A program made the translations under genes and the position numbers. Below are positions 3,449 through 21,502 of a stretch of 64,000 nt of DNA, in pieces. Below the pieces are notes generated by a model. That model saw only the letters and a list, made by a program, of their open reading frames with translations, was not told the DNA's origin and made no database searches. Positions within the stretch are counted from its first letter, which is position 1, and every line of letters begins with the position of its first letter. Origin of the DNA: Pseudomonas cavernicola (lineage in GTDB: Bacteria; Pseudomonadota; Gammaproteobacteria; Pseudomonadales; Pseudomonadaceae); contig NZ_QYUR01000002.1 of NCBI RefSeq assembly GCF_003596405.1, forward strand, positions 2,620,501-2,684,500, read 5' to 3'.

Positions 3449-3637
3449 ATGGCCGCCATGCGCGTTAAAGCATCCGAAATGAAGAAGAAAGCACCACCCG
3501 CTGTTGAAACCCACAGTTCGATTGACGAGCAGGTTGCTGCTTTTCTGAAGTCCGGCGGTGAAATCCAGGAAATCCCAAAGGGTGTTAGCGGCCAAGTATT
3601 TGGCACCTCGAAGCAAATCACTCTTGGCAAGAAATAG
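3449..3637 (+). CDS. Small conserved-type hypothetical protein (62 aa)
   Basis: The product begins MAAMRVKASEMKKKAPPAVETHSSIDEQVAAF. It has a basic N-terminus, an acidic-amphipathic middle and a C-terminal VSGQVFGTSKQITLGKK. I do not recognise a named family. Composition and length look like a soluble cytosolic protein, with no signal peptide or membrane segment. An alternative start is the ATG at 3458 (MRVKAS). An AT-rich promoter-like region (TACAAT at 3413-3418) lies just upstream. A stem-loop GCGCTTTG/CAAAGCGC (3672-3679 with 3692-3699) follows the stop and may end the transcript. That arrangement supports a real monocistronic gene. Confidence 0.6.
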   Translation: MAAMRVKASEMKKKAPPAVETHSSIDEQVAAFLKSGGEIQEIPKGVSGQVFGTSKQITLGKK

Positions 3638-18180: not shown

Positions 18181-19080
18181 TCAGCGCGCGCCTTGGGGGG
18201 CCGGCGTTGGTTCGCGTGAGCTGGAAGCCCACTGCACCGCCAGGATGCTGCCGAGCACGGCAATCAGCCCAGCCAGCGACACGCCTGTCATGCTCTGGCC
18301 CAACAGTGCCCAACCCATGACGACCGCCATCAAGGGGCTCAAAAGGCCCAGCGACGACACCGCCACTGGCGATAGCCGTGCAATACCGCGGAACCACAGC
18401 ACATAGGCCAGCAGGGCACCGAAGAGCGAGAGATAGGCGTAACCCAGCATCTGCGTGGCGCTCAGCGTCGGCAGGGGCGGATCGACCGCCCAGGCCACGG
18501 GCAGCAGTAACAGCCCGCCCACCAGCAACTGCCAGCCGGTGAAGGCCAGCAATGGCACCGCGGGCCGCCAGCGCCGCGTCAGGTAGGTGCCGGCGGCCAT
18601 GCACGTAGTACCGGCAAAGGCCGCGGCAATTCCGATCGGGTCCCACGCGGCACCGGGAGACAGCAGCAAGGCGGCCATGCCCCCTATCCCCAGCAGGCTG
18701 GCCCAAACGGCCAGGTAAGCAGGCTGGTGCCGGTCAAGGACCCACACCAGTCCCATCACCAACAGGGGCTGGACGGCACCGACCACTGCTGCCAAGCCGC
18801 CGGGCAACCGATATGCCGCCACAAACAGCAGCGCCTGAAAGAAGCCGATATTCAGCGCCGCGAGTACAGCCAAACGGCCCCACTCAGCCTGCTTGGGTAT
18901 ATGCCGGCTGAACAGCACCAGCAAAACGCCCGCCGGCAGGGTGCGCAGCAAGGCCGCCGTGAAGGGCAGGTCCGGCGGCAGCAGCTCGGTGGTGACTATG
19001 TAGGTCGAGCCCCAGATAGCCGGGGCCAGCGCGGTGGTGAGCGCATCCAGCCAGGCTAGACGGGTGTGTGTGGTGACCAT
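18181..19080 (-). CDS. EamA/DMT-superfamily exporter
   Basis: The 299-residue membrane protein has ten predicted hydrophobic segments arranged as two EamA repeats (about 10-140 and 155-285). Sequence elements include PAIWGSTYIVTTELLPPD and the second-repeat start LTRRWRPAVPLLAFTGWQLL. EamA proteins export amino acids or other small metabolites, or act as drug/metabolite transporters. The start is at ATG 19080, which follows AAGGTAATCAC. It is divergent from the MarR regulator across an 80-bp gap with two operator palindromes, so it is very likely the regulator's target. Confidence 0.85.
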   Translation of the reverse strand: MVTTHTRLAWLDALTTALAPAIWGSTYIVTTELLPPDLPFTAALLRTLPAGVLLVLFSRHIPKQAEWGRLAVLAALNIGFFQALLFVAAYRLPGGLAAVVGAVQPLLVMGLVWVLDRHQPAYLAVWASLLGIGGMAALLLSPGAAWDPIGIAAAFAGTTCMAAGTYLTRRWRPAVPLLAFTGWQLLVGGLLLLPVAWAVDPPLPTLSATQMLGYAYLSLFGALLAYVLWFRGIARLSPVAVSSLGLLSPLMAVVMGWALLGQSMTGVSLAGLIAVLGSILAVQWASSSREPTPAPQGAR

Positions 19081-19088
19081 GTGATTAC

Positions 19089-19100
19089 CTTGAACTCAAG
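19089..19100. promoter_or_regulatory. MarR-type operator palindrome 1
   Basis: CTTGAACTCAAG is an imperfect palindrome 8 bp upstream of the exporter start codon. Its twin at 19129 has its centre exactly 40 bp away, about four helical turns. This suits cooperative binding of two MarR dimers on one DNA face. A TATAAT hexamer lies between them at 19102-19107. Confidence 0.75.
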
Positions 19101-19128
19101 ATATAATTGAAGCCTAGCGAGCATTTGT

Positions 19129-19140
19129 CTTGAATTCAAG
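19129..19140. promoter_or_regulatory. MarR-type operator palindrome 2
   Basis: CTTGAATTCAAG is a perfect 12-bp palindrome 20 bp upstream of the marR-type gene and matches palindrome 1 at 11 of 12 bases. TTGAAT read on the minus strand could also serve as a -35 box for the exporter, so bound repressor would block it. Confidence 0.78.
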
Positions 19141-19160
19141 CTAAATAATGGAAGGTGACT

Positions 19161-19673
19161 ATGGCTATCAAACAACGGGCTGATGCGGTAGACGCCATCC
19201 TTGAACAATGGCGGCGGGAGCGCCCTGACTTGGACGTCAGTCCGATGGGCACCATTGGCCGGATCAAACGCTGCTCGGCGCTGCTTCAGCGTGAACTGGA
19301 GGTGATCTTCAAAGCCTTCGGCATGACCGCTTGGGAGTTCGATGTGCTGGCCACTTTGCGGCGCTCCGGGGCCCCCTACTGCTTGGCGCCGACGGCCTTG
19401 TTCTCGGCCTTGATGATCACCTCCGGCACCATGACCCGCCAACTGCAACGGTTGGAGGCTGTTGGCCTGGTAAGCCGGATGCCCAATCCCAACGACGCGC
19501 GCAGCATGCTGGTGCAGTTGACGCCGGCTGGGCTTGAGCTGATCGACCGGGCGGTGGAGGCGCATGTCGAGAACGAGGCGAGGATCCTGGCCCCCATAAA
19601 GCCTGCTGACCTGGCGGAGCTGGATGTCCGCTTGTCAGAGCTGCTGGCGGTGTTGGAGCCTAATGTCGACTGA
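19161..19673 (+). CDS. MarR-family transcriptional regulator
   Basis: The 170-residue protein starts at ATG 19161 behind GGAAGGTG. The winged-helix core runs from about 40 to 140: AWEFDVLATLRRSG, LAPTALFSALMITSGTMTRQLQRLE and the wing GLVSRMPNPNDARSMLVQLT. The long N-terminal helix (DAVDAILEQWRRERPDL) resembles the PecS/HosA-like branch, in which an extra helix helps dimerise. It faces the EamA exporter gene with paired palindromes between, the standard layout for autoregulated efflux control. The ligand is unknown. Confidence 0.88.
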   Translation: MAIKQRADAVDAILEQWRRERPDLDVSPMGTIGRIKRCSALLQRELEVIFKAFGMTAWEFDVLATLRRSGAPYCLAPTALFSALMITSGTMTRQLQRLEAVGLVSRMPNPNDARSMLVQLTPAGLELIDRAVEAHVENEARILAPIKPADLAELDVRLSELLAVLEPNVD

Positions 19674-19674
19674 C

Positions 19675-19742
19675 TGGGAACGGCCACAACCCGACATTCG
19701 CACATTCGATCAATTCAGTTCCCCCGCAAGAGTCCGTTCCCA
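19675..19742. repeat. Inverted repeat between marR-type gene and integron platform
   Basis: TGGGAACGG (19675-19683) and CCGTTCCCA (19734-19742) are perfect 9-bp inverted repeats 50 bp apart, beginning right at the end of the marR-type gene. They sit where the integrase gene of an integron would be expected. They could be remnants of an insertion or of the deletion that removed the integrase. Confidence 0.4.
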
Positions 19743-19806
19743 AATAGGTCATATTGCACCTACACTGGCATACACTATCTGCCGGGTTTCTCTGGAATCG
19801 TTATGC

Positions 19807-19822
19807 CTGTATAAACAAACAG
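19807..19822 (-). promoter_or_regulatory. LexA (SOS) box of a lost integron-integrase promoter
   Basis: CTGT-N8-ACAG matches the gammaproteobacterial LexA consensus exactly at the conserved ends. Its position matches the class 1 integron layout from memory. There, TTATGACTGT...ACAG lies just upstream of intI and 56 bp from the first GTTAT of attI. Here the preceding bases are TTATGC and the gap to GTTAT is 55 bp. In integrons this box represses intI. No integrase frame is found to its left: the minus-strand frame meets a stop within a few codons. Confidence 0.65.
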
Positions 19823-19877
19823 CACGCGGGCCGCGAAGCTAGAAGGCAAGCCACTCTTAAGCGTTTCGCATGAACAC

Positions 19878-19935
19878 GTTATCCCGCAGCCACATTTGTA
19901 TCCCGCAGATGATGCGGCATACATTACGTTAGAGC
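19878..19935 (+). other. attI-like integron recombination site
   Basis: The site runs from GTTATCCCGCAG to the core GTTAGAGC (19928-19935), a span of 58 bp. The same landmarks in attI1, recalled from memory, are GTTATGGAGCAG to GTTAGGC and also span 58 bp. A direct repeat ATCCCGCAG (19881 and 19901) corresponds to the DR1/DR2 integrase-binding repeats. Recombination would occur after the first G of the core GTTAGAGC. A gene cassette follows at once. The matching start of the cassette's attC (GCTCTAAC at 20553) is the strongest support. Confidence 0.7.
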
Positions 19936-19947
19936 CCAGAGGTACCT

Positions 19948-20541
19948 ATGGACCCAGGACCATGGAGTTGGTTGGAAGTTGCGAAGCTCACTGCTAGCCT
20001 CTTGGTACCAGGTGCCTTGGCTGCTTTGGGCGTCTACATCCATCGCGTCACGAAGCGATTCGAACATCTCCAGTGGCGCAGTCAAAAGCTGATTGAGAAG
20101 CGACTTGCCGTCTATGACGATTTGGCCCCTCAGCTCAATGATCTTCTTTGCTACTACACGTACGTAGGTGGTTGGCGAGATCTCACCCCACCCAGCGTGA
20201 TTGCAATGAAGCGCGTCGTCGACAAGAAGATCTACCTTGCCGCCCCCTTGTTCAGCGAGGAGTTCTTTGCCTCCTGCATCGAATTTCAGAGCCTCTGCTT
20301 CGAAACGTATACCGGCTGGGGCCGCGACACCTGTCTTCGTACGCTGTTCGAGCGTCGCAGAGAAGGTTGGCTCAAAGACTGGAATCCCGAGTGGGAGAGT
20401 TGCTTTAGCAAAGAAGCAGTTGATCCGGCCCTCGTGCGCAAATCGCATCAGCGTGTGATGGAAGCGTTTTCGCAAGATATTGGCGTGCACTCATCCTTTG
20501 TCGTTCCGATGTCTGGCTCCGTCCCGCTCAATGTGCGGTAG
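19948..20541 (+). CDS. Integron-cassette-encoded membrane-anchored protein of unknown function
   Basis: The 197-residue product begins MDPGPWSWLEVAKLTASLLVPGALAALGVY, with one transmembrane segment at about 12-30. A charged coiled segment (HRVTKRFEHLQWRSQKLIEKRLAVYDDL, to about 60) and a mostly helical cytosolic part follow. I recognise no named domain. The ribosome-binding site AGAGG is 5 nt before ATG 19948. Base composition is visibly lower in GC than its neighbours. Only 12 bp separate the attI core from the ATG and 11 bp separate the stop from the attC. This compact packaging is typical of first-position cassettes, so it would be transcribed from a Pc-type promoter if one survives. Confidence 0.75.
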   Translation: MDPGPWSWLEVAKLTASLLVPGALAALGVYIHRVTKRFEHLQWRSQKLIEKRLAVYDDLAPQLNDLLCYYTYVGGWRDLTPPSVIAMKRVVDKKIYLAAPLFSEEFFASCIEFQSLCFETYTGWGRDTCLRTLFERRREGWLKDWNPEWESCFSKEAVDPALVRKSHQRVMEAFSQDIGVHSSFVVPMSGSVPLNVR

Positions 20542-20552
20542 CTGTAACATTG

Positions 20553-20623
20553 GCTCTAACCCTTCCATCGAGCGGACATCTACAAGCTCCACTTGCGGCT
20601 ATCGCTCATGTCAAATGTTGAAG
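20553..20623 (+). other. attC-like recombination site ending the cassette
   Basis: The site starts GCTCTAAC (20553-20560), the exact complement of the cassette's opening core GTTAGAGC. An attC and its own cassette start are expected to match in this way. An L-box-like CATCGAGCGGACAT follows, then a central CAAG/CTTG mini-stem, then GCTCATGTCAAAT and a right core GTTGAAG (20617-20623). Overall length is 71 bp, within the usual attC range. The right half pairs imperfectly with the left, so the site is degenerate. Confidence 0.6.
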
Positions 20624-20649
20624 GTCTGTTTCGGAGCAAGTTGACTGGC

Positions 20650-20710
20650 GCCGTCGGGTCGACTGCTGCCGGCCGTGACAGGCCGGAGTCGACCCATAGC
20701 TGCCGGTCAG
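20650..20710. repeat. GTCGACT..AGTCGACCC imperfect palindrome, copy 1
   Basis: GGGTCGACTGCTGCCGGCC and GGCCGGAGTCGACCC form an imperfect inverted repeat centred near 20677, followed by TAGCTGCCGGT. A related block with TAGCTGCC and AGAAGTCGACCC occurs at 24500-24560. The rest of 20624-20854 contains only this and the hairpin at 20810. Confidence 0.45.
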
Positions 20711-20809
20711 CTAGCGACCCAAAGGACAATGGTTGGCTGGAGCATGGCAGGATATGGAACTGATCGGAGATGAGCTCCCACGGTCAAGCGTCACTGGACG
20801 CTCAAGGTT

Positions 20810-20836
20810 GGCAGAACCTCACGTCGAGGTTCTGCC
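20810..20836 (-). terminator. Stem-loop after the isochorismatase-like gene
   Basis: GGCAGAACCTC and GAGGTTCTGCC pair perfectly over 11 bp with a 5-nt loop, 19 bp past the stop of the minus-strand gene at 20855. It lacks a clean T tract on that strand. It is still well placed to end the transcript. Confidence 0.5.
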
Positions 20837-20854
20837 AGTCGTCCAAGCACGCTT

Positions 20855-21439
20855 TTAGCCTTGAAGCGCCGTCATGAGGACTTGCACCAACTGACCACCT
20901 TCCGGCGTAGCCCAGCTTCCGGCGAGTTCTGCAATCAGCTGGTTGGTGGTGGTCAGCGTCACGCCGCCTTTATCCATCCGACGCAGGGCGATGTCATCGG
21001 CCATTACGCTCGGTGAGCCACCACCATCGGCAACCACCTGAACTTCATACCCCTCGCGCACCAGACTCAGCGCCGGATAGACCGTGCAGACGTCGTTGGT
21101 GACACCGGCAATGATGAGTTTTTTACGGCCCGTGGCTTTGACGGCGGCGGCGAAGTTTTCATCGTCCATGGCGTTGACGATGCCCAGGCGTTTGACGCGG
21201 GAAGCGAATTCGGCAGGCAGAATCTGCTCCAGTTCACTCAGCAGTGGCCCCTGAGCGTGCTCCTCCATGCTGGAGGTCAGTACCACCGGAAGCTTCAGAA
21301 TGCTTGCCGCCTTTGCGAGCATCAGCGCGTTGCGTTTCAGCTCTTCGAACGGAATGGATTTCACCCACCCCATCGTTCCCACCTGGTGATCGATCAACAG
21401 CAGGGCGGCATTGTCGGCACTGAATTTTTCGTACGTCAT
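20855..21439 (-). CDS. Isochorismatase-like cysteine hydrolase (YcaC type)
   Basis: The 194-residue protein has the cysteine-hydrolase triad: Asp17 in LLLIDHQVG, Lys83 in SRVKRLGIVNAMDD and Cys118 in GVTNDVCTVYPALS. Size and motif spacing match the YcaC subgroup rather than nicotinamidase or true isochorismatase. The physiological substrate of YcaC-type enzymes is not established. It lies 63 bp downstream of a pirin gene in the same orientation, with an OYE reductase upstream of that. This three-gene set is divergent from a LysR regulator and is a frequent combination in pseudomonads. Confidence 0.85.
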   Translation of the reverse strand: MTYEKFSADNAALLLIDHQVGTMGWVKSIPFEELKRNALMLAKAASILKLPVVLTSSMEEHAQGPLLSELEQILPAEFASRVKRLGIVNAMDDENFAAAVKATGRKKLIIAGVTNDVCTVYPALSLVREGYEVQVVADGGGSPSVMADDIALRRMDKGGVTLTTTNQLIAELAGSWATPEGGQLVQVLMTALQG

Positions 21440-21502
21440 GATGATTCTCCTGGCAGTAAGGTTGGGGCACTAACGCCCCGGGTTTGGGACTGTTTCGATC
21501 AT

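Follow-up and report, generated by a model that had tools for sequence, protein, structure and literature searches.

Positions 19807-20623 of the window, by which we mean the whole 64 kb stretch of DNA that was analysed (2620501-2684500 of contig C2, in a genome of 5,626,424 bases in 8 contigs, which we read as Pseudomonas-like from its genes and from the integrons of the genus), carry the signals of an integron platform but no integrase gene, and this raises the question of how such an arrangement came about. The reading that we prefer, with a probability of about 0.85, is that the region is a remnant of a class-1-like integron comprising a LexA operator, an attI site and one cassette, from which intI is missing; this reading was reached by sequence comparison.

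Layout of the locus and its gene cassette

From left to right, the locus comprises an EamA transporter gene, a MarR regulator gene, 133 bp without intI, a LexA box, an attI-like site and an open reading frame (ORF) of 197 amino acids, followed by an attC site, a REP-like repeat and an isochorismatase-family gene. The native left neighbour is the MarR-family regulator gene (19155-19673, plus strand), which was called as an ORF starting at GTG 19155 or ATG 19161 and matched the Pfam family MarR at 6.1e-11. An Rfam search of 19000-21500 gave no match up to E=1.

The inserted cassette is 689 bp long (19929-20617, plus strand), running from G^TT to G^TT, the position at which cassettes are cut, and contains the 197-amino-acid ORF at 19948-20541 on the plus strand. 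The preliminary description had taken two short words as the boundary signature of a cassette. These words are indeed exact complements: GTTAGAGC occupies 19928-19935 and GCTCTAAC occupies 20553-20560, the pattern that a cassette inserted at attI shows as a rule. The first word is the core on the plus strand, made up of the G of attI and then the first bases of the cassette.

The attC site (20554-20623, plus strand) consists of R'' CTCTAAC, L'' CAT[C]GAGCG, L' CGCTCATG and R' GTTGAAG. A covariance search for attC had been named beforehand as the way in which the cassette could fail, and the site was found: model R3, which was built on three other attC and from which the window was excluded, gave it 67.4 bits (E=2e-17, E-values of this kind being rough), and the next matches in the 64 kb scored 16.6 and 9.6 bits. 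Model R2 contains the window attC and was left out of the evidence. The first and broader model, R1, which represents 34 of 75 attC candidates, did not detect the window attC, which is of another type than those in R1. With a looser regular-expression filter, 20554-20623 was the better of the two candidates in the window.

Relatives of the window attC were found in a cassette array of genome G013 (79% over the matched stretch), on Cupriavidus necator pBB1 and in the same chromosome at C2:1336022-1336099, and a pattern search for this type of attC in 239 genomes of the class returned the genome itself (3 places) and one other (G431). A second cassette pair with this type of attC was seen in L025 (1448-1560, near 1337025 of C2), where the second attC is cut short and is followed by a REP-like repeat; a REP-like imperfect inverted repeat (20636-20715) also lies directly to the right of the window cassette. 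When four attC were aligned, the L helix formed by CAT[C]GAGCG and CGCTCATG paired at 8 of 8 positions in all four, with one two-sided change and one bulged C, and 92% of the cells of the R helix were paired. Over the four-attC structure 96.5% of cells were paired, and 35 of 500 shuffles did as well or better; covariation in the four attC is therefore weak, and the support comes from the pairing. The window attC folded as single-strand DNA no better than shuffled sequences did, 45 of 200 of which folded as well.

The cassette ORF is intact and its family is conserved, with 293 relatives; 34 positions were invariant among the 32 aligned (of 120 relatives listed). The protein fell into no family in Pfam, NCBIfam or PADLOC and had no match among PDB sequences. 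Etd1 was matched by one of the 32 relatives (1.8e-4), and in a tblastn search of plasmids four Burkholderia records had relatives at 37-40%. Inspection by eye of L026 showed an attC-like repeat before the gene. For a cassette promoter (Pc), a simple consensus scan found no sigma-70 pattern in 19600-20900, so that read-through from marR, which is on the same strand 275 bp upstream, would be the likely source of any transcript of the cassette.

The LexA box and the attI-like site

The CTGT-N8-ACAG word that was recognised earlier is present as CTGTATAAACAAACAG at 19807-19822, 55 bp before the attI-like site starts at 19878. Two such words were observed in the window against 0.65 expected, and two or more occurred in 16 of 100 shuffles; the LexA word alone is not more frequent in the window than by chance. 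The second word, CTGTTGAAACCCACAG, is located at 3501-3516. As described in PMC3108266, intI is under LexA control. The box at 19807-19822 may be the vestigial operator of the promoter of a lost integrase, now without its gene.

The attI-like site (19878-19935, plus strand) has the 58 bp attributed to it in the preliminary description. Its first direct repeat, GTTATCCCGCAG, occupies 19878-19889, and the second, TGTATCCCGCAG, follows 19 bp later at 19897-19908 on the same strand; within them the duplicated word ATCCCGCAG stands at 19881-19889 and 19900-19908, again 19 bp apart. The class 1 spacings of 56 and 58 bp given in the preliminary description were seen in four class 1 loci (L043, L044, L045 and L047), where, counted from the LexA box as 0, the repeats have offsets of 72 and 91 and the core has 123. 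The corresponding offsets in the window are 71, 90 and 121. In the class 1 locus L046 the first repeat word is altered, and the core offset is 123 as in the others.

The 33-nt repeat block of attI1 was slid over both strands of the window, and the best match was at 19876 with 21/33 identities, a score reached at only 1 of 127,936 window positions. For comparison with regions upstream of integrase genes, 140 loci were reduced to 130 by removal of 10 without a recognisable N-terminal motif, and to 125 by removal of 5 that were too short. Among these 125 regions only the five class 1 loci outscored the window, and the next best reached 20/33. None of nine further integrase-upstream regions shown had GTT[AG] at the attI1 distance. 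The class 1 alignment of 19770-19940 was equalled by 2 of 1000 shuffles, that of the part to the right of the LexA box by 12 of 1000, and that with the LexA box and the core held fixed by 42 of 5000. The likeness to class 1 over the whole stretch is moderate, and weaker than the repeat-block match.

Searches of 398 genomes of the genus and of plasmids brought up nothing closely related to the attI-like stretch. Against the 130 integrase-upstream regions its top local score was 14, the null maximum being 16; a plasmid search with 19790-19940 gave one 24-bp match, and a search of the same genome returned the stretch itself and no second copy. Nor did nhmmer match the window attI to the native attI family of this genome. 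A 25-bp match in G138 was dropped; it sits between two genes, which we take to encode a thiolase and a reductase. The site qualifies as a putative attI, and does so only by its resemblance to attI1; its order and spacing are class-1-like, but at 21/33 identity in the repeat block it is too distant to be named attI1.

The missing integrase and the native attI sites

The space where intI would be expected holds, as was noted earlier, the marR-type gene and a 9-bp inverted repeat, TGGGAACGG (19675-19742, with arms at 19675-19683 and 19734-19742), and the minus-strand frames to the left of the LexA box meet stops after 1, 18 and 9 codons. In an alignment of intI1 DNA with the 133 bp that precede the LexA box, 611 of 1000 shuffles did as well; the raw, uncontrolled scores with the IntI1 protein were 29 in one plus-strand frame and 18 to 21 in the minus-strand frames. 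The best integron-integrase match in the genome reached 79.3 bits against a family cut-off of 265, and at E 1e-60 an integron integrase was found in 47 of 398 genomes of the genus. Neither the intI that a complete integron requires nor the intI1 of a class 1 integron was thus found, with no integrase above the cut-off in the genome and no trace of one to the left of the LexA box.

The preliminary description had concluded that the integrase was deleted. Its absence is borne out by these searches; its deletion in place is not: no trace of the gene is left, and native attI regions elsewhere in the genome also lack intI, so that the platform may have arrived without it. Arrival without intI is as likely as deletion in place. 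On the reading that we prefer, recombination of attI with attC by an integrase would have brought the cassette in, and the integrase would then have gone missing: its gene was deleted in place, or the platform reached this position without intI. Since the loss of the integrase the cassette would have been immobile, and would be fixed unless an integrase were supplied in trans. The earlier claim of one fixed cassette holds for the number, with one cassette and one attC present, and holds for the fixation only as long as no integrase comes from outside.

Five relatives retain the pair of EamA and marR genes, with 72-79% identity at the DNA level, and the homology ends at 19594-19660. The preliminary description had named, as evidence that would speak against it, relatives with the same flanks and the coding sequence in a non-integron context; what they have in common with the window is the left flank up to 19660, within marR, followed by other sequence without the coding sequence. 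Results also showed that none of 18 other marR loci (with flanks of about 1.5 kb) matches the window past 19660 and that none has the cassette. Seven loci were inspected, and at three of them the gene that follows marR reads as one for an FKBP-type isomerase. The left flank to the right of marR had no real counterpart in 398 genomes, and no empty site was found. Matches of 30 bp to 19705-19734 in seven genomes were rejected as homology; all lie in one near-identical repeated stretch.

Counting that of the window, the genome contains at least 49 distinct attC with E-values up to 1e-3: R1 found 40 and R3 a further 9, with 150 candidates scored per search. If sites less than 10 kb apart are grouped, they form 15 clusters. 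The native attI region, used as a query, matched at 14 places including its own, one of them weak; of the 13 clear places (the native attI copies of L245-L257), 11 align through the core. Six of these loci (L248, L249, L250, L251, L253 and L254) have a common upstream segment in place of intI. Among the first cassettes of 20 other sites in the genome, the exact seven-base boundary lies behind a native attI at six (L230, L231, L233 twice, L235 and L236).

Several of the native copies have features of their own. The copy at C6:598839 is accompanied by a scrap of intI (L230, about 1848-1986, from C6:598847), which comprises roughly the initial 40 codons, contains a stop and heads a cassette array. 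L255 and L256, two native attI places, have about 2.7 kb in common at 98% identity, a recent larger duplication. The native attI module of L254 is interrupted by about 1.3 kb of other DNA, probably an insertion sequence.

In the genus, the native attI was matched at E 1e-4 in 59 of 396 genomes, with few places per genome scored and some matches short, and 31 of these 59 (G029, G080, G109 and others) are not among the 47 genomes with intI. Among 29 native-attI loci from other genomes, a crude word test found no IntI motif on the intI side in 17. An attI without an integrase thus looks common in the genus. Integrase-less platforms are frequent in the present genome, and that of the window is the one of class-1-like design.

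Origin of the platform and its relation to known systems

The alternative with the best standing, to which we allow somewhat under an even chance, is that a piece made up of attI and cassette was copied here without intI, by recombination or by a mobile element, as the native attI regions seem to have been. It is counted within the main reading, and the two differ solely in their account of why intI is absent. The matches to the native attI at 14 places, the upstream segment that replaces intI in the six loci named above and the REP-like repeat to the right of the window cassette all favour such copying; against it, the genome has no second copy of the window's attI stretch, and the left end of a copied piece is not visible.

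It is improbable that an integrase located elsewhere inserted a single cassette at an ordinary chromosomal site (attG) downstream of marR, the LexA box and the repeats being coincidental. Off-target insertion has been described (PMC8618304), attG sites are cited in PMC12901181, and the many scattered cassettes of the genome, the LexA word that alone is not rare and the lack of any intI trace would all agree with it. However, insertion at an attG predicts neither a LexA box nor attI1-like repeats at matching offsets, and neither an empty site nor a real counterpart of the flank right of marR was found in the 398 genomes. That the ORF is an ordinary chromosomal gene with a chance likeness to cassette signals is hardly credible: the homologue locus L027 has no attC by model R1, and neither has L026, which speaks for it, but the attC score of E=2e-17, the exact boundary complement and the lack of a counterpart of the gene in the relatives' marR loci contradict it.

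The preferred reading, that of a class-1-like remnant, places the locus beside several known systems. The class 1 platform, with intI1, LexA box and attI1 (L043-L047), has the same order, spacing and cassette boundary rule; the present locus differs in having no intI, 21/33 identities in the repeat block and one non-resistance cassette, and in lying between marR and an isochorismatase-family gene. A CALIN, which is an attC cluster lacking an integron integrase, likewise combines attC cassettes with no integrase nearby. The default CALIN threshold is two attC (PMC12444791), and the locus, with the one attC of the window, falls below it and unlike a CALIN keeps an attI-like site and a LexA box. 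Loss of intI with scattered CALIN has been described in Xanthomonas (PMC12444791), and ways in which cassette arrays without an integrase may arise are discussed in PMC8618304. In the Shewanella prophage M16-3, a CALIN has its own attI, which as in the window heads cassettes without an integrase of their own; as described in PMC9892861, that genome also contains a complete integron whose attI is the same, whereas the searches of the present genome found no intact integrase, and the attI of the window is non-native. The native attI copies of the same genome (L245-L257) also combine attI and cassettes without intI, with the boundary signature at six places, but have another attI sequence, and no LexA box was seen beside the native copy. 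Lone cassettes at attG resemble that of the window in being solitary in a chromosome, but an attG requires neither a LexA box nor attI repeats, and both are present here.

The locus is another integrase-less platform, of a kind already known and in an unusual setting, and the genome-wide pattern is the more interesting lead. Literature searches, mostly of open papers, brought up none that we recognised as describing a Pseudomonas genome with attI copies dispersed at many places. A tentative account, which we consider possible and rather doubtful, is that intI-less attI sites multiplied in this genome and were filled in trans by one integrase, the window attI being a second, independent type of platform in the same network, and that its loss throughout the genome then froze about 50 cassettes at 15 places. 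Loss of an integrase freezes captured genes into chromosomes and bears on the question of how acquisitions are made permanent. With many integrase-less attI sites and one of class-1-like design, such a genome is a place to test the self-spreading of attI sites, and also whether chromosomes of this kind once carried class-1-like platforms.
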